Source: a virus. Taken from it: a stretch of DNA of 30,824 nucleotides. Both the position numbers and the translations under genes were made by a program. The DNA lies in IMG/VR virus record IMGVR_UViG_3300034152_000329, positions 1 to 30,824 of that record. One strand, 5' to 3'. The notes under the pieces are model-generated. The model was not told the DNA's origin, made no database searches, and saw only the letters and a list, made by a program, of their open reading frames with translations. The number at the start of each line of letters is the position of its first letter. Within the stretch, counting starts at the first letter, position 1. Positions 4,390 through 28,207 of this stretch are shown piece after piece.

Positions 4390-5862
4390 TCAGATCCACT
4401 CCCGCGGGTCGTCGCCGACGAGCATGTCGGCGATCTCCTTCTTGTCCCGGAGGCACGGGATTATCTTGTCGTCGTCGACGGTCCCCGTCGCGACCACGTC
4501 TCCGATTATAACATGCCCGGTCTGCCCCGCGCGGTGCGCCCGGTCCTCGCTCTGGAGCCGGTGCGTGAGGTTGAACGAGTTGCTGTAATACTGGACCTTC
4601 CGCGCGCACTGGAGGTTCAGCCCGGTGCCGGCGCAGGCCGGGTTCCCGACGAAGAACTGGACGTCGCCGTCCCAGAACCGCTTCTTCGCCTCGAGCCGCG
4701 CCGCGTCCCCCGTCTGGCCGTCGTACCGCACGGCCTTCTTCCCGAGGATCTCGCAGAGCGCCGTCACGTCGTGCTGGAACCGCGCGTACACGATCGCCTG
4801 CTCATCCTCCGCCTCGAACCAGCTTCGCATAACGTCGAGTCGCGGGTTCTTGTCGAAGACGTGAGGGTTCGGCGCCTCGTGTCCGTCGTCCGTCGGGACG
4901 TACCCGCAGACGACCTGCTGGAGCCGGAGGAGCAGCGTGAGCTTGTGCTGTACCGTGACCTCCGCCCCGCTCTCGAGCTCGGCGCGGTAGTCGTGCAGCA
5001 GCGCCTCGTACGCCCGCCGCTGCTCCCGCGTGAGGTCGTAGTGTAGCTTCGTGAAGACCTTCGGCGGGAGGTCCGGGAGCGCGGTCTCCTTCGGGATCCG
5101 GGAGGCCGAGGCGGCGAGGATCGCCTTCAAGCGGTCGAGGTTCCGGTACGTCACGAGCTTCGGGAACCGGCGCCCCTCCCGGGTCTCGCACTGGATCCAG
5201 ACCGCGAAGAACGTCTTGAACGCCTGGAAGGAGTTCAGGCCGTGAGGCTTCCAAAAGTTGCGGTCAATGAACTTCATCTGCTGGTACACGTCGAACGGCT
5301 TGTTCGCCACCGGGGTCCCGGTCAAGATCCGGCGGTACGGGGCGAGGGACCCGCTCGCGATCACGAGCTTCGATCGGTGGGCTCCCGGGCTCTTCACCAG
5401 GTGGCTCTCGTCGAGCACGTACAGGCAGCGCCGGCGGGTCAGGAACTTCTTCGACGTCTCCTTCCCCTTCTCCGGTTGGGTCTTCTTCCGGCGGGTCGTG
5501 ACGAAGGAGTCGTAGCTCATGGTGAGGATCGAGAGCCCCGGGAACGCGAGCAGGGCCTCGATCTCCCGGGACTGCCACTTCGTCCCAGCGGAGGCGCCCC
5601 GGTACGCGAGCGCCTTGTACCGGACGCCCGGAGGGAGGTGCTTCGGGATCTCGTCGTATACCCAGCCCTGGTGAACCCCGTTGGGCGCCAGGACGAACAG
5701 GGCGTCGATCTCTCCGCGAGTGTAGAGCTCGCCTACCAGGTCCAAGACGGCGCGGGTCTTTCCGGTCCCGCAGTCCCAGAAGAGCGCCCAGGCGGGCGTA
5801 GAGGCACGCTCTCGGAGCTCCTGCGCCTGGTGCGCGTAGGGAGCCGGTCTGTGATCCTTCAT
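4390..5862 (-). CDS. SNF2-type superfamily 2 helicase/ATPase
   Basis: This 490-residue protein has all main SF2/SNF2 motifs. They are a Q-like N-terminus (PYAHQAQEL), motif I CGTGKT (about residue 31), motif II DESH (about 151), motif III LTGTP (about 180), a second RecA domain with IVYARFQHD, motif V NPACAGTGLNLQ (about 408) and motif VI QSEDRAHRAGQ (about 435). The DESH box and the final HRxGQ motif place it in the SNF2-like group that phages use in replication or recombination. A GAGGAG site lies 6 bases before the ATG. It follows the small SSB-like gene after 49 bases and ends just ahead of the tRNA. The length is typical for single-module phage SNF2 proteins, with no extra nuclease domain. 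Confidence 0.93.
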   Translation of the reverse strand: MKDHRPAPYAHQAQELRERASTPAWALFWDCGTGKTRAVLDLVGELYTRGEIDALFVLAPNGVHQGWVYDEIPKHLPPGVRYKALAYRGASAGTKWQSREIEALLAFPGLSILTMSYDSFVTTRRKKTQPEKGKETSKKFLTRRRCLYVLDESHLVKSPGAHRSKLVIASGSLAPYRRILTGTPVANKPFDVYQQMKFIDRNFWKPHGLNSFQAFKTFFAVWIQCETREGRRFPKLVTYRNLDRLKAILAASASRIPKETALPDLPPKVFTKLHYDLTREQRRAYEALLHDYRAELESGAEVTVQHKLTLLLRLQQVVCGYVPTDDGHEAPNPHVFDKNPRLDVMRSWFEAEDEQAIVYARFQHDVTALCEILGKKAVRYDGQTGDAARLEAKKRFWDGDVQFFVGNPACAGTGLNLQCARKVQYYSNSFNLTHRLQSEDRAHRAGQTGHVIIGDVVATGTVDDDKIIPCLRDKKEIADMLVGDDPREWI

Positions 5863-6310: not shown

Positions 6311-7738
6311 TTACGGCATCTTAGGTAGCTGCCGCTTCCGCTCCTCGTCCTGCGCCCAGGCGATGTGAGAGCTCCGGCAGCCGACCTCGTCGTACCGCCA
6401 CGCCTCGACGCTCTTCATGGGCTCCCCGATAAGGCTCTGCTCGTGGTGCCAGAAGTCCACGTTGCAGAGGGACGGGTGCCGGCGGATCAGGACGCCGTTC
6501 GTAGGGACGACGCCCTCGTACATCTTCTCCCACCTCTGGTGCTTGTCGCCGACCTGGATCTCCCGGTACGTCGAGGAGCTCCAGTACTCGATCGCCTGCT
6601 GCGCGAACGTCAGCGCGAGCTGGTTCGGCGCCGTCCTCGCCCCGTGGTCGAACCCGAGGAGGACGCCGCCGTTCAGCCGGAACTTCCGCGGGTTCGCTCC
6701 GAGATCGACCTTCACGCGCTCGTCGTAGAGGAACCGGTGCGCCAGTACGGCGCAGAGGGTATACGAGAGCACGAGGTCGTGGTTCCCGGGAACGTAGATC
6801 ACCTCGACGTTCCCGAACTCCGCCGCGGCGCGCTCTACCATGTAGCAGAGACACTTCAGGCCGGCGGTATAGACCCGCGCGAACCGGGAGTCGACGTCGA
6901 GGTGGTGCTCCCCGGCCGTCGTCCGCAGCCGCGCGTTGTCGAAGTGCAGGAAGTCGTTCCCCACGGGCATGAGGGCCTTCTTGATCGGGTACGGGCGGAG
7001 CTCCGCGATCATGTCGTCGACGGAGTTGAGGACGCGATTCGTCGCGATGTTAACGTCCCAGTCCGCGCCGACCTCGTCCCGCCAGGCGTACGCGCCGAGG
7101 TGGGCGTCCCAGACGCCCCAGGAGACGACCTCGTTCGCGCCCTTCTTCGGCTCCTGCCTCTTCCGGGGCCGTAGGGGCGCGACGTTGTCCCGGGCGAAGT
7201 CCAGGAGGGCCTCCTCCATGCTCTCCGTCATGATACGCTTGAACGTCGCCCCGCTCCCGTACAGTTGGACCTTCTGGTGCCCCTGCACGAGGCCGCGGTT
7301 GATCTCCGCGAAGACCTCGTCGTCCGAGAGCCCAGAGGAGAAGAGCTCTCCGAGCTTCCGGATCAGCGGCTTGTCGAGGAAGTTCTTCAGCTTGTAGAAC
7401 GACTGGTAGAGCCGGCTCCGGCCGTACTGAGGAATCCACCGCTTCGGGTCCATCCCGGCCATGTCCCGGATCTCCTCCGGGCTGAGGAGCCGGTCGTAGG
7501 AGAGGACCTCGACCGTGCCGTCGAGCGTCGATCGATCGACGACCTGTCCGACCTCCGCGTCCGGAACCGTTTCTTTAACTACCTTCCCTCCGCCTCCCGG
7601 GGCGTTCTTCTTGACCGCGCGAACGATCGTACTGTGGTCAACTCCGAGATCCTTCCCGATCGATCGGACGGTCTCCCCAGCGGCGACGCGGCGAACGGCT
7701 TCCTGGATCTGCGCGTCGGACAGCTTCTTTTTTGCCAT
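6311..7738 (-). CDS. HTH domain fused to calcineurin-like metallophosphoesterase
   Basis: The protein has 475 residues. Residues 1-42 form a resolvase-type helix-turn-helix (LSDAQIQEAVRRVAAGE, then IGKDLGVDHSTIVRAVKK). After a linker, the C-terminal two thirds carry metallophosphoesterase motifs: WDAHLG (about 210), GNDFLHFDN (about 255), PGNHD (about 317), GFDHG (about 357) and GDKHQ (about 398). These fit the DxH, GDxxD, GNHD and GH-type metal ligands of the calcineurin-like superfamily, with GND in place of the usual GD. Such enzymes cut phosphoesters in DNA or nucleotides, and the HTH suggests the substrate is DNA at specific sites. It is the first gene after the repeat-rich non-coding locus, which makes that locus an obvious candidate target. 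AAGGAG lies about 10 bases before the ATG. Confidence 0.88.
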   Translation of the reverse strand: MAKKKLSDAQIQEAVRRVAAGETVRSIGKDLGVDHSTIVRAVKKNAPGGGGKVVKETVPDAEVGQVVDRSTLDGTVEVLSYDRLLSPEEIRDMAGMDPKRWIPQYGRSRLYQSFYKLKNFLDKPLIRKLGELFSSGLSDDEVFAEINRGLVQGHQKVQLYGSGATFKRIMTESMEEALLDFARDNVAPLRPRKRQEPKKGANEVVSWGVWDAHLGAYAWRDEVGADWDVNIATNRVLNSVDDMIAELRPYPIKKALMPVGNDFLHFDNARLRTTAGEHHLDVDSRFARVYTAGLKCLCYMVERAAAEFGNVEVIYVPGNHDLVLSYTLCAVLAHRFLYDERVKVDLGANPRKFRLNGGVLLGFDHGARTAPNQLALTFAQQAIEYWSSSTYREIQVGDKHQRWEKMYEGVVPTNGVLIRRHPSLCNVDFWHHEQSLIGEPMKSVEAWRYDEVGCRSSHIAWAQDEERKRQLPKMP

Positions 7739-7790
7739 ACGGTAGGTGCTCCTTGGTTCCGGGGTTCTCTTGTCCTATGCTTCTGGTTCC

Positions 7791-7819
7791 AGAATACCAC
7801 ATAACGGCCGGGTTGTACA
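7791..7819 (-). promoter_or_regulatory. Candidate extended -10 promoter for the replication genes
   Basis: On the minus strand TGTACA (7819-7814) and TATTCT (7796-7791) are 17 bases apart. TGG stands directly before the -10 hexamer, as in extended -10 promoters. Each hexamer matches the consensus at four of six positions. Transcription would start near 7784 and lead into the HTH-phosphoesterase gene 46 bases later. The nearest TGGTCC repeat lies just upstream (7845), so a repeat-binding protein could control it. Confidence 0.4.
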
Positions 7820-7915
7820 GGGCAATTCTCGGAGGACCGGCGGGTGGTCCAACGCCCAGGGGTGGTCCCGAGGTGGTCCCGCCCTTGGTCCGCTCCTAAG
7901 TCCAAGTGTAAACTC

Positions 7916-8046
7916 ATGGTCCAATGGTCCATTACTTTTTTAAAAGTTAGAGAGAATAAAATAGGTTCCCTTTTGGGAATTTGGGAACGAAAATCGCGTG
8001 TAAAAAGTTTCGTTTTTCCCTCTGGACCACTGGACCATTGGACCAT
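7916..8046. repeat. Perfect 16-bp inverted repeat around an AT-rich core
   Basis: Arm ATGGTCCAATGGTCCA at 7916-7931 and its exact reverse complement at 8031-8046 flank 99 bp of AT-rich DNA. Each arm holds two TGGTCC units 8 bp apart. The right side has a third unit at 8024. The symmetry suggests binding of protein dimers on both sides of the core, or looping. Confidence 0.75.
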
Positions 8047-8105
8047 CCCTGATTCCATGCCAGTAGGGGTGATTTCTGGTCCCGATGGTCCAAGGGTCCG
8101 AGAGC

Positions 8106-8381
8106 TCAGTTGGTGAAAACGGCCTTGATCCCGAGGCCAATTGCCCCCGCGCAGGCGGATGCACCGATTCCCACGAGCACCATGACGGCGCGCCGGCGGG
8201 CGCAGGAGAGCGTCGTCCGGAGCTCCCGGACGAAGGCGAAGTCGTGCTGCACGCTGATCGGGTCCTCCATGTCGACGCCGAGCCCCCGGAACGTCTCGCG
8301 GACCGTCTCCTTCGCCGTCACGCGAGCGATCTTCTGCATGATGTCCTCGAGCTCTTCCTTACTGTATATCCGATCAGCCAC
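8106..8381 (-). CDS. Small membrane protein following the tip gene (DUF6127-like)
   Basis: This 91-residue protein starts at GTG 8381 with GGAGG 5 bases ahead. The N-terminal 60 residues are charged and helical (IYSKEELEDIMQKIARVTAKETVRETFRGLGVD). One transmembrane segment follows near the C-terminus (about residues 65-88, AVMVLVGIGASACAGAIGLGI), with a basic ARRR just before it. The pattern, including a GVD..DP..VQ.DF..VRELR core, matches small phage proteins I recall as DUF6127-like, often found after tail-tip genes. It may help injection or lysis (holin-like). It closes the tail operon, 11 bases after the tip gene. Confidence 0.8.
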   Translation of the reverse strand: MADRIYSKEELEDIMQKIARVTAKETVRETFRGLGVDMEDPISVQHDFAFVRELRTTLSCARRRAVMVLVGIGASACAGAIGLGIKAVFTN

Positions 8382-8392
8382 GGGGACCTCCG

Positions 8393-11350
8393 TCAGTAGA
8401 TCATTACTGCGTGCGCGTTCACCGTCCCGCTCGGGGCGAGAGACTCGAGGAACGTCTCCGTCGACGTCCCGGTGTTGCTGAGATGCTGAATCTCTATCGT
8501 ATCAGTTGCGGTGACGCCCGCCAGGGTTCCGGTCAGGAGACCCGCGGTGATAACGTTCTGCCACGCGCCGCCGTTGATCCGCGCCTGGACGTTCCCGCTC
8601 GGCATAGCCGTCCCGATGTTGAACGTATACGTCCCCGTCTGCGGAGCGGACCAGGTTCCGGAGATCGCGCCGAACGCGACGTTGCCCCAGTTGTGATCGT
8701 CGTCCAGCGTACTCGTCCCGGGACCGAACGTAAAGGTGAGCTCCTGCTGGGCCGTCCGCGTCGTCCCGTCCGCGTTGTGCCGGGTCTCGACGTCCACCCG
8801 TACCGTCGTGGGCTTCGTCCCGCCGGTCGCCCGGAGGATCTTCGTCCGGCTGAGGAAGGCGTTCGCCGCGCTCGCCCAGGAGGTCACCACGAGAGACGTC
8901 GGGCCGGAGGTGTCGAGGATCTCCGCCCGGTACTCCGTCGTGTCCTGCGTCGGGAAGCTGGAGTCCAGAGTCCCGGCGTCCGTTCCGATCGCCTCGACCT
9001 CGTCGAACCAGCGCCAGCTTCGGCGGGTGAACGTGACCTCGTACCCCCGGTCGTCGAGCGTCGAGCCGCCAGTCTTCAGGGTGTCCCAGGACGGGGCGCT
9101 CGGGTACCGGCTCCCGTTGATATTCATCTCGACCGGAGGGTACGGCTTCCGCGCGCGGTTGTCCATGGTCAGCGACTTCTGGACCGCCTCCCCCTCCGTC
9201 GTCTCGTCGGACCGGCTGACCTGCCGGAGCTGCGCGTGCACGTTGTTAGTCTGCGGGATCGCGGTGTCGGAGAGGTTCCCGCCGACGAAGACGAGGTAGA
9301 CCTTCGTCCCGACCGCGTGGTCCCGCGGGACTGAGTCGAGGAGGCCGCGGTGACAGGTCTCCAGGTCGATGTAGGTGGTCTGGTCCGTGACGGTCTCCGG
9401 CGCGAAGAACTCGTCCTCGACGAGAAGGAGGTTCGTGAGGTTCTGGCCCACGTCCGCGGCGTTGCTCGCGAAGAACTCGGCGAGGAGGTCCGCGTGCACG
9501 TCGTCGTCAGCCTCGAGCTGGATATCCGTCGTGCTCGGGTTCGGGTCCTCCTCGAGCATAGCCGTCTTGAGCTTCCCGATCAAGAAGAACTCCGAGACCT
9601 CGCCGGCGAGGCTGTAGCTCCCCGTGGGCGCTCCGGAGGAGTTGCGCTCGTAGAGGTTCATGCTGAGCGCCGGGGCGTCCTCCCGGCGGCCACCGGCCCA
9701 GAGGCGGTCGAGGGCGGTCGCGTTGACCGGGTCCCGCCGAATGAAGGCGTACGGCGCCTCGAAGACCAGGTGCCGCGCGTCCGGGATCTCCTCGACGTCG
9801 AAGTCGGGAGGGGTCCAGCCGCTCGCCGGCGGCGGAGCGTTGAACCCGCTCGAGTAGCTGTATATGTCCTGGACAGCCGTGATCTTGATCGTACCGTCCT
9901 CGAGCGTGCCGAGGTCGACGTCCGTCACGCGCATGGGGAGCTGTGTGTGCCCGATCTCGTCGTCGGTCCACGCGAAGACGTCTCCGGGGTTCAGGCCCCA
10001 GAACTCGCGCTTCACCTCCAGGACGCACTTCCCGAGAGGGCGGGCGCGCTCCCGGATCTCCCGGTCGGCGATCTGCTGCGCGAGCGTGGCGTCCTTCACT
10101 CCCGGGAACTTCAGGTGCGTCGGGTCCACCTGCCCCTGGGCGCGGATCTGCCCCGCGGAGCTCCCCTTCGCGTACGTCGGCTTGTACCCTCGGTTACGGT
10201 CACTGAAGTCCACGTACACCTCGTTGATGAGCGACTCCCAGGTGCCGGGATCCCAGTTCTTGACCCGCTTCACGTCGCCGTCCGCGCGGACGATCTGCGG
10301 TACCGAGCCGATCACGTAGTCGTCGCGAGCCAGGTTCACGGACCACTTCCCGGTGGTCTGGTTCAGGTAGATCGCGCCGTCGATCTGGCGCTCGAGCTCC
10401 CGGAGGAGCTCTCCGGCGTCCAGCGCGGACGTTACGACCATAGAGAACCCGTTGCCTTCACTATAGAGCGTGTCGGCCGCTGTAGTAAAGCCAGACGTAT
10501 CTATGTCGGAGGCCGGGAACCCGAAGCCCCAGCGCGGGTCCGTCAGGATCTCGTAGATCACGTTCATGGGGTTGCAGTCGTTCGAGTTAACGAGCTCCTT
10601 CCCGCCGGTGAGCCCGAGGCCGTTCGGGATCCGACGCACCTCGAACTTCCACGGCTTTATCGAGGGGGAGTTGCCGAGGTACCCGCCCTCCCAGACGACG
10701 TAGCAGACGGGCCGGTACGCGGACGTGTGCGGCGTCTGGTACGTCGAGAGGTACGTACTGGCCGGCTGGGACCCGTACCCGGAGAAGACGCGGAAGTCCC
10801 CGATCATGCCGCCCTGGCCGTGGTCGTCGCCGCCGAAGAGGTTCGGCTTGTTGATGCTGATCACGCCGTCCTGGACGGTTCCGCTCCAGACCTCCGTGTC
10901 GCCGATCCAGATCCGGCGGAGGTTGTCGATTCGGCCGCGGCAGAGGGCGGCCTGGACGCCGACGTTGTACCGGTACCCCTGGATGAACGACTTCTTCGAC
11001 CAGAGCCCCGTCTTGACGGTCTCCTTGATCGCGTTCTGCGAGAGGTCCCCGTACCAGACCACGTTCGGTCCCTCGAGCTTCACCGTACCCCAGACGATCG
11101 GCTGCGGCCTCCCCTCCGTCGCGGTCGGGAAGGTGAAGTCCCCGAGCGCGGCGGGGCGCGCGTCCTCGATGTTCGGCTTCGGGCGGAGGAGCTCCCCGAG
11201 CACGATCGAGGCGACGGCGATCACGGCGGAGACGATGAGCGAGACGCCGAAGTCCGCACGTACCGCGGTCGGGTCTGCCTCCTGGGCCGGAAAGAGGAGG
11301 CTAAGCGCCATGAGGAGCATTATCCAGCACGGGATCTTGATCGGCTGCAT
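8393..11350 (-). CDS. Tail tip / receptor-binding hub protein (GTA/J-like)
   Basis: This is the largest protein of the window (985 residues). The N-terminus has a hydrophobic segment (about 5-20) and another at about 37-55 (LIVSAVIAVASIVLGELL). The following domain, with RPQPIVWGTVKLEGPNVVWYG at about 80-100, is typical of siphophage tip-attachment proteins of proteobacterial phages. The hub region (about 240-520) has NPMNVIYEILTDPRWGFGFP and the REIRERARPLGKCVLEVKREFWGLNPGD segment known from phage tail hub proteins. Later parts look like fibronectin-like beta domains. The C-terminal ~130 residues (from about FGPGTSTLDDDHNWGN) read as a jelly-roll (SGTWSAPQTGTYTFNIG) and probably bind the receptor. 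ATG overlaps the TAA of the previous gene. It acts at the tail tip in host recognition and DNA delivery. Confidence 0.9.
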   Translation of the reverse strand: MQPIKIPCWIMLLMALSLLFPAQEADPTAVRADFGVSLIVSAVIAVASIVLGELLRPKPNIEDARPAALGDFTFPTATEGRPQPIVWGTVKLEGPNVVWYGDLSQNAIKETVKTGLWSKKSFIQGYRYNVGVQAALCRGRIDNLRRIWIGDTEVWSGTVQDGVISINKPNLFGGDDHGQGGMIGDFRVFSGYGSQPASTYLSTYQTPHTSAYRPVCYVVWEGGYLGNSPSIKPWKFEVRRIPNGLGLTGGKELVNSNDCNPMNVIYEILTDPRWGFGFPASDIDTSGFTTAADTLYSEGNGFSMVVTSALDAGELLRELERQIDGAIYLNQTTGKWSVNLARDDYVIGSVPQIVRADGDVKRVKNWDPGTWESLINEVYVDFSDRNRGYKPTYAKGSSAGQIRAQGQVDPTHLKFPGVKDATLAQQIADREIRERARPLGKCVLEVKREFWGLNPGDVFAWTDDEIGHTQLPMRVTDVDLGTLEDGTIKITAVQDIYSYSSGFNAPPPASGWTPPDFDVEEIPDARHLVFEAPYAFIRRDPVNATALDRLWAGGRREDAPALSMNLYERNSSGAPTGSYSLAGEVSEFFLIGKLKTAMLEEDPNPSTTDIQLEADDDVHADLLAEFFASNAADVGQNLTNLLLVEDEFFAPETVTDQTTYIDLETCHRGLLDSVPRDHAVGTKVYLVFVGGNLSDTAIPQTNNVHAQLRQVSRSDETTEGEAVQKSLTMDNRARKPYPPVEMNINGSRYPSAPSWDTLKTGGSTLDDRGYEVTFTRRSWRWFDEVEAIGTDAGTLDSSFPTQDTTEYRAEILDTSGPTSLVVTSWASAANAFLSRTKILRATGGTKPTTVRVDVETRHNADGTTRTAQQELTFTFGPGTSTLDDDHNWGNVAFGAISGTWSAPQTGTYTFNIGTAMPSGNVQARINGGAWQNVITAGLLTGTLAGVTATDTIEIQHLSNTGTSTETFLESLAPSGTVNAHAVMIY

Positions 11351-23951: not shown

Positions 23952-24994
23952 CAGGGAGTCCTCTCCCGCCGGTCCGGCGTAACGGTAAACGTGAAGGCCG
24001 GCGTCGTGTCGTCGTCCTCGTAGACCGTTATCAGCGTATCGCTGGCGTTCACTACCACGCGGTTCGTCGTAACCTTCCGGATCTTCTCCGCGGCGGCGAG
24101 GATCGTGACGAGGTCGTCGAGGTACGCCGCGCGGGCGGCGGTGTAGCCCTGGGCCGTCATGGCGGTCTGGACGTCCGCGATCGTGATATCGTTTAGCGCG
24201 GCGATCGCGGAGATTACCGCGGAGATCGTCGCGTCGAGGTTGTCGAGGTTCCCGGCTCGACCGGCCGTATAGCCCTGCGCTGTAAGAGCCGCCTGTACGT
24301 CCGCCTGCGAGAGATCGTTCAGCGCGGCGATCGCGGAGATTACCGCGGAGATCGCGGCGTCGAGGTTGTCGAGGTTCAGCGCCCGCCCAGAGGTGTAGCC
24401 CTGGGCGGTCAGCGCCGCCTGAACGTCCGCCTGCGAGAGGTCATTGAGGGCGCCGATCGCGGCGGTAACCGCAGAGATCGCCGCGTCGAGGTTGTCGAGG
24501 TTCCCGGCGCGCGCTACCGTATACCCCTGGTTATCCATGGCAGTCTGGACGTCCGCGACGCTGAGATCGTTTAGCGCCCCGATCGCGGTCGTGATGTTGC
24601 TCTCCGTCGTGGAGAGGGCCTGGTCGATGTCGTCTACGAAACCGCCGACCTTGATCTCCCCGACCAGCGGGAGGTTCGCCGCGTCCGTCCCGGGAGACTG
24701 GTCGACCCGGACCTCGTACGTATCGTCCGCAGCGGCGTTCGTGATCGCGCTCGTATCGAAGTCGGAGTGATACGTCCCGGGGTCGTTCGTAGCGTCGGTC
24801 TCCGTCATCTGCTCCTGTCGGGTGGTCCAGCCGGACGCCTTGAACGTGTCGTCGCTGAAGTCGTACCACTGCCCGTCGCTTACCCTACGGATCGAGAGCA
24901 GGATATCCGTTTTCCCGGTGAGAGGGTCGAGAGAGCCGTCGAGAACGACGGCCTCGATCCGCTCCGTATCTCCCGTTTGTATTCGTACGCTCAC
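23951..24994 (-). CDS. Fibre-like protein with four 42-residue repeats
   Basis: The protein has 347 residues from GTG 24994, which overlaps the TGA of the zinc-ribbon gene (GTGA). A longer in-frame start at 25363 is rejected because its extra part shadows that gene. Residues 1-115 form a beta head (RIEAVVLDGSLDPLTGKTDI; DDTYEVRVDQSPG) of the type found in phage fibre and baseplate proteins. Residues about 137-302 consist of four repeats (AIGALNDLS.ADVQTA...GYT..RA.NLDNLDAAISAV). A C-terminal beta motif follows (RVVVNASDTLITVYEDDDTTPAFTFTVT). The NLDNLDAAIS motif is common in phage fibre proteins that form trimers. It may be a head or tail fibre. Confidence 0.85.
   Translation of the reverse strand: MSVRIQTGDTERIEAVVLDGSLDPLTGKTDILLSIRRVSDGQWYDFSDDTFKASGWTTRQEQMTETDATNDPGTYHSDFDTSAITNAAADDTYEVRVDQSPGTDAANLPLVGEIKVGGFVDDIDQALSTTESNITTAIGALNDLSVADVQTAMDNQGYTVARAGNLDNLDAAISAVTAAIGALNDLSQADVQAALTAQGYTSGRALNLDNLDAAISAVISAIAALNDLSQADVQAALTAQGYTAGRAGNLDNLDATISAVISAIAALNDITIADVQTAMTAQGYTAARAAYLDDLVTILAAAEKIRKVTTNRVVVNASDTLITVYEDDDTTPAFTFTVTPDRRERTP
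24083..24586. repeat. Four tandem 126-bp repeats in the fibre gene
   Basis: The repeat period is exactly 126 bp: the GYT-coding landmarks lie at 24141, 24267, 24393 and 24519. The second and third units are closest to each other at DNA level. The outer units diverge, as expected for repeat expansion by unequal recombination. Copy number may vary between relatives. Confidence 0.9.
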
Positions 24995-25473
24995 GGCTCT
25001 ACGTCCAGTAGCTTCTTCGGCTCCCAGGTCTCCGGGTCGGGAACCTCCTCGGTCGTGAGGAACCCGTAGGCGATCGCGGCGATCGCCCCCCTGATCATGT
25101 CGTTCGGCGAGTCGAGGGTGACCAGCCGGGTCCACCCGTCGTACGGGGAGATCGTGCCGCCGCAGCCGGCGCACTCGCCCGAGGTGGCGGGAGCCCACGC
25201 GCCGCAGTCTCCGCACTTCCCGAGCGCCATACCGGGCTGGAGAGGGTTCATGCCGTTCTCGATCTTCAGGTACGTGAAGACGTCCTCGCCCGTATCCGGA
25301 TCCCGGTGCTGTATGAACGACGACTCGTCTGCCGGATTCGTCAGGCGGCCGATCGTGAGCCAAAACTCCACCCAGCGCTGGCCTATGTACGGGTTCTCCT
25401 CGATCTTAATAGAGGCGATCCGAACGCGGTCGAGCGTCTGGGATACCTTCGGGCTCCTAAGCAGCTTTGACAT
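24991..25473 (-). CDS. Zinc-ribbon protein of unknown function
   Basis: This 160-residue protein starts at ATG 25473 with GAGAGG about 9 bases ahead. It overlaps the glycosyltransferase 3' end by 17 bases. Residues about 88-106 contain CGDCGAWAPATSGECAGCG, two CxxC knuckles that probably bind one zinc ion. An N-terminal part (VSQTLDRVRIASIKIEENPYIGQRWVEFWLTIGRL) and a C-terminal helix (RGAIAAIAYGFLTTEEVPD) flank it. An in-frame upstream start at 25614 would add only Arg/Ser-rich shadow sequence. The setting between the glycosyltransferase and a fibre gene suggests a structural or modification role, but I do not recognise the family. Confidence 0.8.
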   Translation of the reverse strand: MSKLLRSPKVSQTLDRVRIASIKIEENPYIGQRWVEFWLTIGRLTNPADESSFIQHRDPDTGEDVFTYLKIENGMNPLQPGMALGKCGDCGAWAPATSGECAGCGGTISPYDGWTRLVTLDSPNDMIRGAIAAIAYGFLTTEEVPDPETWEPKKLLDVEP

Positions 25474-26674
25474 TCTCGTATACCTCTCTCGTCTTGGCGG
25501 CCGCGTCCTGCCAGGTAAAGTCCTCGACCCGCTGGAGTCCGAGAGCCGAGAGCTCAGCCTTCGCGGGTCTATTATACCGTAAGAAGGTGAGCGCCTCGAC
25601 GATATCGGAAGCACTTCCGGGCTCGATTATCAGGGAGAACTCCTGATCGTCCTCGGTAACGATCTCGCCGAGGCCCTCGACCTCCGTAGAGATCAGCGGT
25701 ACGCCGGCGGCCATGAACTCCAAGGCGACGATCCCGAACGGCTCGTTGATCGACGGCATGAGCCCGACGTCGGCGGCGGAGTAGAGCCCGCGGAGATCGG
25801 CGTCGTCGTCCTGGAACCCGACCCACTTGACCCGCTCCGGGAACTCCTCGCAGAGCTTCCGGAGCCGATGCGTAACGTCCCACCGCTCCTTATCCTCCTC
25901 AGTGTTAGCGTTTACCTCACCGGCAACGACGATCTGATATCCCGTATCCCGCGTCTCGACGGCGTCCAGGAGGGGTCGGATACCCTTCATGTCGGCGATC
26001 CGGCCAACGAAGAGCGCGATCGGGCGATTTAGGTCCGCGAGGCCGTACTTCTCAAGAACACGCGCCGCGAGAACCGGATCCCGAGCCCACTCCCGCGCGC
26101 GGATCCCGTTATGTATCACGTTTACGGGCCGGTCCGTCATGAAGACCCGCCGCGCCGTCCGCTCGTAGGCGCGGGAGCAGAGGATCAGCTCGTCGACGCC
26201 GACTACCAGGTGCCCCTCCTGCTGCATGAGGTAGAGGTCCGTCTCCTGGTACTTCGTCTCGGTGGTCCATTCCTGGAGCGTAAGGTCGGTGATACAGAGG
26301 TGCATGGTCCCGACGAGAGGGACGTCGAGGGCGTCTCGGGCGACCCGCGCGACCTGGAGGGCGTTCCACTCGTGAACGTGTACGACGTCCCAGCGGCGCC
26401 CCTGAGCGATCAGCCGGGCGAGGGTCTTCGTGAGCTGGATATCGGCGACGAGGAGGCTCGACATATCGGGCTGGCGAGGCTTCCAGCAGACGAGCTTATC
26501 GGCGTGGTGCTTCTGGCAGCCGAGGTACTCCGTCGTTCCCTCCGCCGGCCCGGAGGTGAGGATATCCACGGAGACGCCCTGCTCCGCCATGGCCCGGTAG
26601 AGCTCCCGGACGTGGCGCCCCATGCCGCCGAGGATCCACTCCGGGTCCTCCTGACAGATCGCCAGTACTCTCAT
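25457..26674 (-). CDS. GT4/GT-B family glycosyltransferase
   Basis: This 405-residue protein has both GT-B halves. The N-terminal part has GGMGRHVRELYRAMAEQGVSVDILT (about 16-40), the acceptor side. The C-terminal part has ALFVGRIADMKGIRPLLDAV (about 225-244) and the nucleotide-sugar motif PSINEPFGIVALEFMAAGVPLI (about 316-337). The E(x7)E pattern is represented by EPFGIVALE. The layout resembles glycogen/starch-synthase-like GT4 enzymes that use ADP- or UDP-sugars. The GAGGAG site is 9 bases before the ATG. It is embedded among virion protein genes rather than in DNA metabolism, so its likely substrates are virion proteins (fibres, the three related small proteins) or the host surface. Glycosylation of phage DNA is an alternative. 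Confidence 0.92.
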   Translation of the reverse strand: MRVLAICQEDPEWILGGMGRHVRELYRAMAEQGVSVDILTSGPAEGTTEYLGCQKHHADKLVCWKPRQPDMSSLLVADIQLTKTLARLIAQGRRWDVVHVHEWNALQVARVARDALDVPLVGTMHLCITDLTLQEWTTETKYQETDLYLMQQEGHLVVGVDELILCSRAYERTARRVFMTDRPVNVIHNGIRAREWARDPVLAARVLEKYGLADLNRPIALFVGRIADMKGIRPLLDAVETRDTGYQIVVAGEVNANTEEDKERWDVTHRLRKLCEEFPERVKWVGFQDDDADLRGLYSAADVGLMPSINEPFGIVALEFMAAGVPLISTEVEGLGEIVTEDDQEFSLIIEPGSASDIVEALTFLRYNRPAKAELSALGLQRVEDFTWQDAAAKTREVYENVKAA

Positions 26675-26686
26675 TCTCGGGTCTCC

Positions 26687-27211
26687 TCAGTATAGGATCG
26701 CGACCTCGCCCCAGCAGTTCAGGGTCCGGAGGCCGGCGGAGTAGTTCGTCCAGACCGTCCGGAATACCCGCGTCGTTCCCGGCACGGTCTCGTAAAGGTA
26801 CGCCTCGGTGAGCGATACGTCGGCGCCGGTAGACGCGAAGACCTTGTGGGAGAGGTTCAGCGCGCTCGCCCGCTTCGTGTAAACCGCGTTGTACGACGAA
26901 CTCGAGATCGTGCCGTGACCGCCCGTGGAGCAGGTCGAGGCGTCGAACTGGTTCCGGGTAGCGATCCCGACTACGCCGGCCTTCCCGCCGCCCTCGGCGG
27001 TCGTATTTGAGCTCCGGAACGAGAAGAGAACTGCCTGCGCCGCGTACGGGATCACGATGTCCCACTCGTCCGGCCCACCGGGGAGCGGGTAGACGGTGAG
27101 GGTAGTGTTAGCGACCTCGAGGTTCCCCGGCCGAACGTGGTGCTGGTCCGTGGAGACGTTCGTCAGCGCCGCGTGGGCGAGCGGGTGGCGGAGGAAGTCC
27201 CGGAGTCTCAC
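26687..27211 (-). CDS. Related small virion protein 3 (DQHH-type)
   Basis: This 174-residue protein has an N-terminus MRLRDFLRHPLAHAALTNVSTDQHHVRPG, in which STDQHH corresponds to the DxxxDHH motifs of the next two genes. A beta domain follows (VANTTLTVYPLPGG; ALNLSHKVFASTGADVSLTEAY), and the C-terminus (RVFRTVWTNYSAGLRTLNCWGEVAILY) matches theirs in pattern. N-terminal (S/D)xxDHH motifs are common in phage fibre or collar proteins. It shares ATGA with the preceding gene and stands just before the glycosyltransferase gene, after 12 bases. It is probably a fibre or head-decoration protein. Confidence 0.78.
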   Translation of the reverse strand: MRLRDFLRHPLAHAALTNVSTDQHHVRPGNLEVANTTLTVYPLPGGPDEWDIVIPYAAQAVLFSFRSSNTTAEGGGKAGVVGIATRNQFDASTCSTGGHGTISSSSYNAVYTKRASALNLSHKVFASTGADVSLTEAYLYETVPGTTRVFRTVWTNYSAGLRTLNCWGEVAILY

Positions 27212-27690
27212 TTCACCACCACGGAGCCGTAGCAGCTCATAAATCGAGTAACCGCGGCGGCGTTGTAGAACTCCAGCACGGCGTCGGAGCCGTCGATGTA
27301 GGCGTTCCGCAGGCGTACCCCGCCGCCGAACATCGGGGGCGTAAGGTACGCGTCGCCGTGGAGGCGTGAGTACCCGCCCATGTAGCTCGTTACGTACCCG
27401 CTCCCGTACGGCTTGATACCGATCCCGCTACATTCTCCCGCGGAGTCGCCAGCCACGACGAATACCCCGGTATGTCCCTGGATATCGACGTTCTCATCGC
27501 CCCTGAGGATCGCCCGGAGCGTCTTGTGACCGGGCTGCCCGAGAGGCTCGCGGTGCTCCCACGCAGAGCTCGCTGGGATCGACTGCGAGTTCACTATAAC
27601 GTCGTAGTACACGACTGACGGGTGGTGATCGTCCTCACCGACGTCCAGCAGCATGTCGTGATCTGTGACGATCTGCTCTCCGAGTCTCAT
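27208..27690 (-). CDS. Related small virion protein 2 (DHH-type)
   Basis: This 160-residue protein starts MRLGEQIVTDHDMLLDVGEDDHH. The DVGEDDHH motif matches that of the first family member (DVGAHDHH). A beta domain with TGVFVVAGDSAG, GYSRLHGDAYLTPPMFGGGVRL and AYIDGSDAVLEFYNAAA follows, ending SCYGSVVVK, in parallel with the ends of the other two. It starts one base after the previous stop. The three genes are a tandem family whose members differ mainly in the middle, consistent with different surface exposure. The role is probably fibre or decoration. Confidence 0.78.
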   Translation of the reverse strand: MRLGEQIVTDHDMLLDVGEDDHHPSVVYYDVIVNSQSIPASSAWEHREPLGQPGHKTLRAILRGDENVDIQGHTGVFVVAGDSAGECSGIGIKPYGSGYVTSYMGGYSRLHGDAYLTPPMFGGGVRLRNAYIDGSDAVLEFYNAAAVTRFMSCYGSVVVK

Positions 27691-27691
27691 G

Positions 27692-28207
27692 TCACCATAC
27701 CAGGGCTTGGCCCTTGACCCAGAGGGTCGCCGAGCCCCCGAAGTAGTTCCTGAACGTAATCCGGAGGATGCTCCCCGTGATTACCGCGTCCTGGACGCAG
27801 ATGTACCGGTTTCCGCTCCCCGTGTTAGAGTCGAATATCTTATGCGTAAGGTACGAATCCCCGTTCTGCTTCGAGTACGTCGCGGCGTACACCTTCTTCG
27901 GGCTCGCCGCGTCGCGGATACTGTGACCGACGGCCTCCGAGGAGTCCGTCGTTACGACGAGCTCGGCGCACTCCCGCCAGAGAGCGCTTGAGATCCCGGC
28001 CGGGATCACGGCCGGACCGGTTATCTGGACGCGCGCGAGCTGGTACCCAGTGCGCCCGAGCGGGACGTCGAGGTCGAACGTCGCCCCGGGCGGAAGAGAC
28101 TGGGCAGTGTTGCTGAAGCTGACGGATTCCGGAGCGTTGTGGTGGTCGTGTGCCCCCACGTCGAGGGCCTCGTGGCTTCGGCCGTCCGAGGGTGCCCCCA
28201 GGCGCAT
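27692..28207 (-). CDS. Related small virion protein 1 (DHH-type)
   Basis: This 171-residue protein begins MRLGAPSDGRSHEALDVGAHDHHNAP. The pattern DVG.hDHH is shared with the second gene and, in changed form, the third. A beta-rich middle (PPGATFDLDVPLGRTGYQL; PAVIPAGISSALWRECAELVVT) leads to NGDSYLTHKIFDSNTGSGNRYI. The C-terminus AVITGSILRITFRNYFGGSATLWVKGQALVW ends like the other two. It is the first of three consecutive relatives, right after a 59-residue gene. Fibre or decoration protein is the likely role, inferred from position and motif. Confidence 0.78.
   Translation of the reverse strand: MRLGAPSDGRSHEALDVGAHDHHNAPESVSFSNTAQSLPPGATFDLDVPLGRTGYQLARVQITGPAVIPAGISSALWRECAELVVTTDSSEAVGHSIRDAASPKKVYAATYSKQNGDSYLTHKIFDSNTGSGNRYICVQDAVITGSILRITFRNYFGGSATLWVKGQALVW

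Follow-up and report, generated by a model that had tools for sequence, protein, structure and literature searches.

We analysed a non-coding locus in a viral DNA stretch of 30,824 nucleotides (IMG/VR record IMGVR_UViG_3300034152_000329), a 30.8-kb contig that represents a fragment of its genome and is called the window throughout. The locus, which we term A, fills a 367-bp gap (positions 7739 to 8105) between a helix-turn-helix (HTH)-phosphoesterase gene and a gene for a 91-aa membrane protein, both on the minus strand, and contains 11 exact copies of TGGTCC or its complement GGACCA within 247 bp. Four plus-strand copies (7845, 7863, 7874, and 7886) form a left distal group (7845 to 7891); two more (7917 and 7925, at an 8-bp pitch) lie in the left arm (7916 to 7931, plus strand) of an inverted repeat; three minus-strand copies (8024, 8032, and 8040, again at an 8-bp pitch) make up a triplet (8024 to 8045) that overlaps the right arm (8031 to 8046); and two plus-strand copies (8077 and 8086) form a right distal group (8077 to 8091). 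The 16-bp arms are 100% complementary with 99 nt between them, and the AT-rich core (7931 to 8010), a candidate DNA-unwinding element, has a GC content of 30%, the minimum of the window (next lowest elsewhere, 41%). The words, perfect arms, and AT-rich core had all been proposed in an original prediction, which read the locus as an origin or central switch, and they are confirmed here; its 8-bp spacing between neighbors holds for the words nearest the core but gives way to within-arm steps of 9 to 18 bp elsewhere, and its scheme of direct words left and inverted words right of the core fits the triplet but not the words at 8077 and 8086, which are direct again. Because the word TGGTCCA is near-palindromic (TGG-W-CCA), direct and inverted copies differ in the middle base alone.

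Whether such an array could be a chance or low-complexity product of a GC-rich genome can be judged from its density. Hexamers are common, and weaker 6-mer clusters occur in the window at 16.4, 22.8, 24.1, and 28.8 kb, but the TGGTCC cluster is the densest of them all: the whole window contains 31 copies of TGGTCC/GGACCA, at 44.5/kb inside the 247 bp and 0.65/kb elsewhere, so that the original expectation that the 6-mer would not be equally dense outside the locus was right. In 40 dinucleotide shuffles of the window the maximum for any 6-mer per 260 bp was 7, below the 11 observed. Together with the conservation of the words and the recurrence of the locus at the same place across the group, both described below, this makes an artefact exceedingly improbable.

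Comparison with a separate contig, L021, whose TGGTCC locus precedes a YuA-like gene for the small terminase (terS; position B below), shows which parts of the sequence are retained. The sample of L021 also yields L006, a contig 99.76% identical to the window. Word positions are conserved between the window and L021 at 65 of 66 sites (98%), as against 125 of 193 (65%) in the remaining locus, and outside the core block the figures are 53 of 54 for words and 78 of 142 (55%) for the rest; none of 259 circular shifts of the word mask matched the observed conservation. Since the words are conserved while the spacers diverge, the alignment is direct evidence, at the level of sequence, that the words are what selection keeps in this locus. 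Three of the four left distal words are identical in L021 (the fourth is GGGTCC there), as are both right distal words and a 46-bp block (7911 to 7956, plus strand) comprising the word pair and the TTACTTTTTTAAAAGTTAGAGAGAA core. On the minus strand, positions 7966 to 7979 inside the core form a TTCCC-AAAA-GGGAA hairpin with a T-rich run behind it, possibly the terminator of the structural operon. L021 has not retained this hairpin, and an Rfam search of the locus found no known structured RNA. Beside its TGGTCC locus, L021 also contains (positions 1 to 380) what may be the end of a TnpB-like transposase, together with a CCCCCCTCGTGAGAGATTTG-GTAAATTTCGTAGAACGG repeat in two copies.

Judged by its genes, the window virus is a YuA-like (Mesyanzhinovviridae-like) siphovirus, read here in mirror image. 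Its proteins match those of Pseudomonas phage YuA at 61% (capsid), 56 to 62% (the counterpart of gp66, the major structural protein), 47% (Dda helicase), and 37% (SNF2 helicase), and the gene order is that of YuA, mirrored, with homologous capsid, tail, and helicase genes; the locus is thus placed at the YuA tail-end/early junction, between gp01 and gp02. The HTH and phosphoesterase/exonuclease gene (6311 to 7738, minus strand; phrog_704, 1.9e-53) is the first of the replication module, and it and one small gene separate the locus from the SNF2-type helicase gene (4390 to 5862, minus strand; phrog_62), the counterpart of YuA gp02. The membrane-protein gene on the other side (8106 to 8381, minus strand) belongs to phrog_6420 (37 to 41% to YuA and PaMx28).

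This placement between the structural and replication modules, correctly called in the original prediction, holds across the YuA-like group. We compared eight complete relatives (YuA, MW2, Ab18, Epa5, Sonora, RHph_I65, Simon, and Pam3) and found a repeat locus at the equivalent junction, upstream of the SNF2 helicase, in every one. We searched each genome with its own gap upstream of the SNF2 gene (A), and the best match outside A was in all eight cases the gap upstream of terS (B), at positions 33133 (YuA), 35251 (MW2), 31294 to 31598 (Ab18), 49371 (Epa5), 263 (Sonora), 16877 (RHph_I65), 54546 (Simon), and 54201 (Pam3); in RHph_I65 and Pam3 the terS annotation was checked only after the match had been made, and it agreed. 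In the seven genomes measured, A and B share exact blocks of up to 18 to 62 bp, depending on the genome. Same-length random segments score clearly below the A-B pair in Ab18, Epa5, RHph_I65, Simon, and Pam3. In YuA the pair scores only slightly above the highest control, in MW2 one control is equal, and in Sonora some controls are higher, so that in these three phages the pairing rests more on the position of B. A second homologous copy upstream of terS, like the change of word between genera described below, goes beyond what the single window could reveal. The locus belongs to a pair of short non-coding control sites that mark both borders between replication and particle-building genes in YuA-related phages and that probably act as replication origins. 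Because the record is a fragment, we infer that the window phage itself has both copy B and an initiator gene.

The position of B immediately before terS, the same in each of the eight complete genomes, raises the alternative of a packaging or concatemer-processing site, at which the small terminase or a recombinase would bind the words; B would then be pac and A its second copy. A 2025 survey of the Mesyanzhinovviridae (PMC11946847) gives headful packaging as the presumed mode for the family. However, A is distant from terS, equally kept, and the copy that adjoins the replication genes, and a pac site bound by TerS does not require an AT-rich core flanked by iterons. We consider this explanation improbable.

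Position and layout are conserved in relatives, as had been anticipated, but the word itself is not. In contig L005 (tail gene 73% identical) the repeat locus lies one gene off this position, with the word GTTCCCACC and the core TTAAGAAGAGTCAGAGAGAATATATAG. In a marine phage group (L035, L041, and L050), perhaps related to the YuA-like phages, TAAGACAAT words surround a GTTAGAGAGAAT core close to the terminase genes; the layout occurs there as a very dense locus, with TAAGACA present 12 times, and one gene of the group looks, by eye, like that of a MoxR-like ATPase. Of 80 metagenomic contig segments surrounding a gp05-type gene, 57 contained an SNF2 homologue and enough upstream DNA. The stretch preceding that homologue ranked first in repeat density within its segment in 20 of the 57 and among the top 1% in 25; because several segments nearly duplicate one another, the number of independent cases is smaller than these counts. 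Words in the metagenomic segments include TAAGAAA, ACTTACT, CTTGACTT, GTTAAGA, CTCGACC, GTAGGGT, and GCTGCTA, with an AT-rich core in most. The word differs between genera, while iterons flanking an AT- or purine-rich core persist. A blind scan for 7-mer clusters gave weak signals in Simon and YuA, despite their clear A/B homology.

Scanning viral contigs for ATGGWCCAATGGWCCAT found this layout in L021 alone, a core-pattern scan of 84,980 genome species gave 18 matches, none flanked by repeats on inspection, and a DNA similarity search of phages and plasmids with the locus itself gave weak matches only. Core similarity in Lactococcus phage P078 comes without repeats, and a word cluster upstream of the primase in PaMx28 was discarded as a coding repeat. 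TAAGACA words upstream of an AlpA HTH gene and a Prim-Pol gene in Aeromonas 13AC503A, in a single place and without a core, are retained as a weak hint.

On balance, and from sequence evidence, we lean towards a paired iteron-type replication origin, with A at the structural/replication border and B upstream of terS; of the two options in the original prediction, origin appears likelier than central switch, which supports that proposal in part. In its favour count the clustering of the words, their selective conservation, the AT-rich core, the constant position and layout in relatives, the copy at terS, and the recurrence in metagenomic segments. The layout itself, iterons around an AT-rich core, is typical of iteron origins. 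It resembles the origins of phage-inducible chromosomal islands (PICIs), including Staphylococcus aureus pathogenicity islands (SaPIs), in which two sets of iterons invariably flank AT-rich DNA and which are served by a primase/Rep-type initiator (PMC6092414), much as the candidate here is a D5/VapE-like primase-helicase. Unlike in PICIs, the loci occur in full phages with their own DNA polymerase and in two copies per genome, and the primase-helicase gene is far away, whereas a PICI origin adjoins pri-rep. Closer in number of copies is Bacillus phage SPP1, whose two similarly organised origins, oriL and oriR, consist of direct repeats and an AT-rich unwinding element bound by gp38, with one in the late region (PMC6316719). 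Two loci of repeats and AT-rich DNA per genome were found in all eight complete relatives, and for the window through L021 only. SPP1 differs in using gp38, gp39, and gp40 (a DnaB-type helicase) where the candidate initiator here is D5/VapE-like, and in having oriL inside gene 38, whereas both loci here are intergenic and at module borders.

In the mechanism that we propose, a phage-encoded initiator would bind the flanking TGGTCCA words and melt the AT/purine-rich core between them, allowing helicase loading. The most likely initiator is the D5/VapE-like primase-helicase of the YuA gp26 family, possibly with help from a small HTH protein. The second copy might offer replication another starting point, or it might block forks and so set off concatemer synthesis; SPP1 oriR is proposed to stall forks and start concatemer synthesis in this way (PMC6316719). 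We infer binding, melting, and the start of replication at the locus. A D5/VapE-like (DUF5906) primase-helicase is encoded in all 12 complete phage records searched, which makes it a plausible initiator for the locus. YuA gp26 (L084, 19963 to 22374) is such a DUF5906/VapE-like protein, although its record calls it a putative integrase, an error that the 2025 survey describes as frequent for primase-helicases in the YuA family (PMC11946847).

Several observations weigh against an origin. The primase-helicase gene lies many kb from the loci in the complete relatives, and the window record lacks both an initiator gene and copy B. The whole window, locus included, is free of DnaA boxes (TTWTNCACA), although an initiator of the D5 type may need none. 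Cumulative GC skew, proposed originally as a check, does not discriminate: in the window its minimum, at 9225, lies near the locus, but the complete relatives have no consistent switch at A or B. Finally, the YuA database record (GenBank NC_010116) marks active sigma-70 promoter fragments inside both loci, at 489 to 568 and 33014 to 33160.

These entries make paired transcription-control regions the main rival, in which a phage or host regulator would use the words as operators to coordinate the operons that start at the module borders, and the AT-rich core would be promoter DNA. The -35 hexamers listed for the two YuA loci overlap the word CTTAGGTTACTT, and operons start after both loci; the record lists the same two loci of the type phage as promoter fragments only, and the repeats, the core, and their mutual homology are absent from it. 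A distant YuA relative, Brevundimonas phage Delta (vB_BsubS-Delta), one of the alphaproteobacterial phages, offers a similar word-dense intergenic gap beside the structural module, 1.3 kb long and packed with predicted CtrA sites; host CtrA bound a probe from this gap and appears to repress a gene there (PMC9437464). Delta's words are host CtrA sites, whereas TGGTCCA and most other words here are not: CtrA sites of the form TTAA-N7-TTAA number zero in the window, L005, L035, and YuA A and B, and one in RHph_I65 B. A consensus scan of window positions 7500 to 8500 found no sigma-70-like -35/-10 pair with 16- to 18-bp spacing, and the window has no second TGGTCC cluster at another gene start. 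In Ab18 and Epa5 the shared A and B blocks run in opposite directions with respect to the genes; they have the same orientation in the other five of the seven genomes, and the core is antisense in the window and L021 but sense in L005 and YuA. Such inversions oppose a purely directional promoter and fit an origin better, and we regard operators as a distinctly less probable reading. The window locus may still have promoter function, because its YuA counterparts are recorded as active promoters, and an origin with overlapping promoters is possible.

As a more tentative extension, which we would not expect to hold in full, the loci could be twin origins at the early and late borders whose word is re-specified in each lineage in step with the primase-helicase, while one copy would double as a programmed fork barrier from which concatemer synthesis for packaging begins. 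If so, lineage-specific words would leave co-infecting relatives unable to use each other's initiator. The open-access papers searched, including the sections consulted of the 2025 survey (PMC11946847), give no origin for the YuA-like group, nor do they mention repeats, pairing, or origin function at these loci; the 2008 paper on the YuA genome falls outside this scope and may already cover part of the finding. Loci A and B offer exact candidate origin positions in cultured phages of a group that includes many Pseudomonas aeruginosa isolates.

Elsewhere in the window, a gene of the structural module (25457 to 26674) encodes a 405-aa GT4-like glycosyltransferase, as judged by eye from its translation, and is without a counterpart in the YuA comparison. 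Two adjoining structural-module proteins (27208 to 28207) arose by duplication and have diverged to about 30% identity; a third protein next to them (26687 to 27211) is similar in size. A cluster of short coding repeats of the AACCTCGAC type, at 24085 to 24290, encodes repeated ALNDLSQADVQAALTAQGY-like segments.
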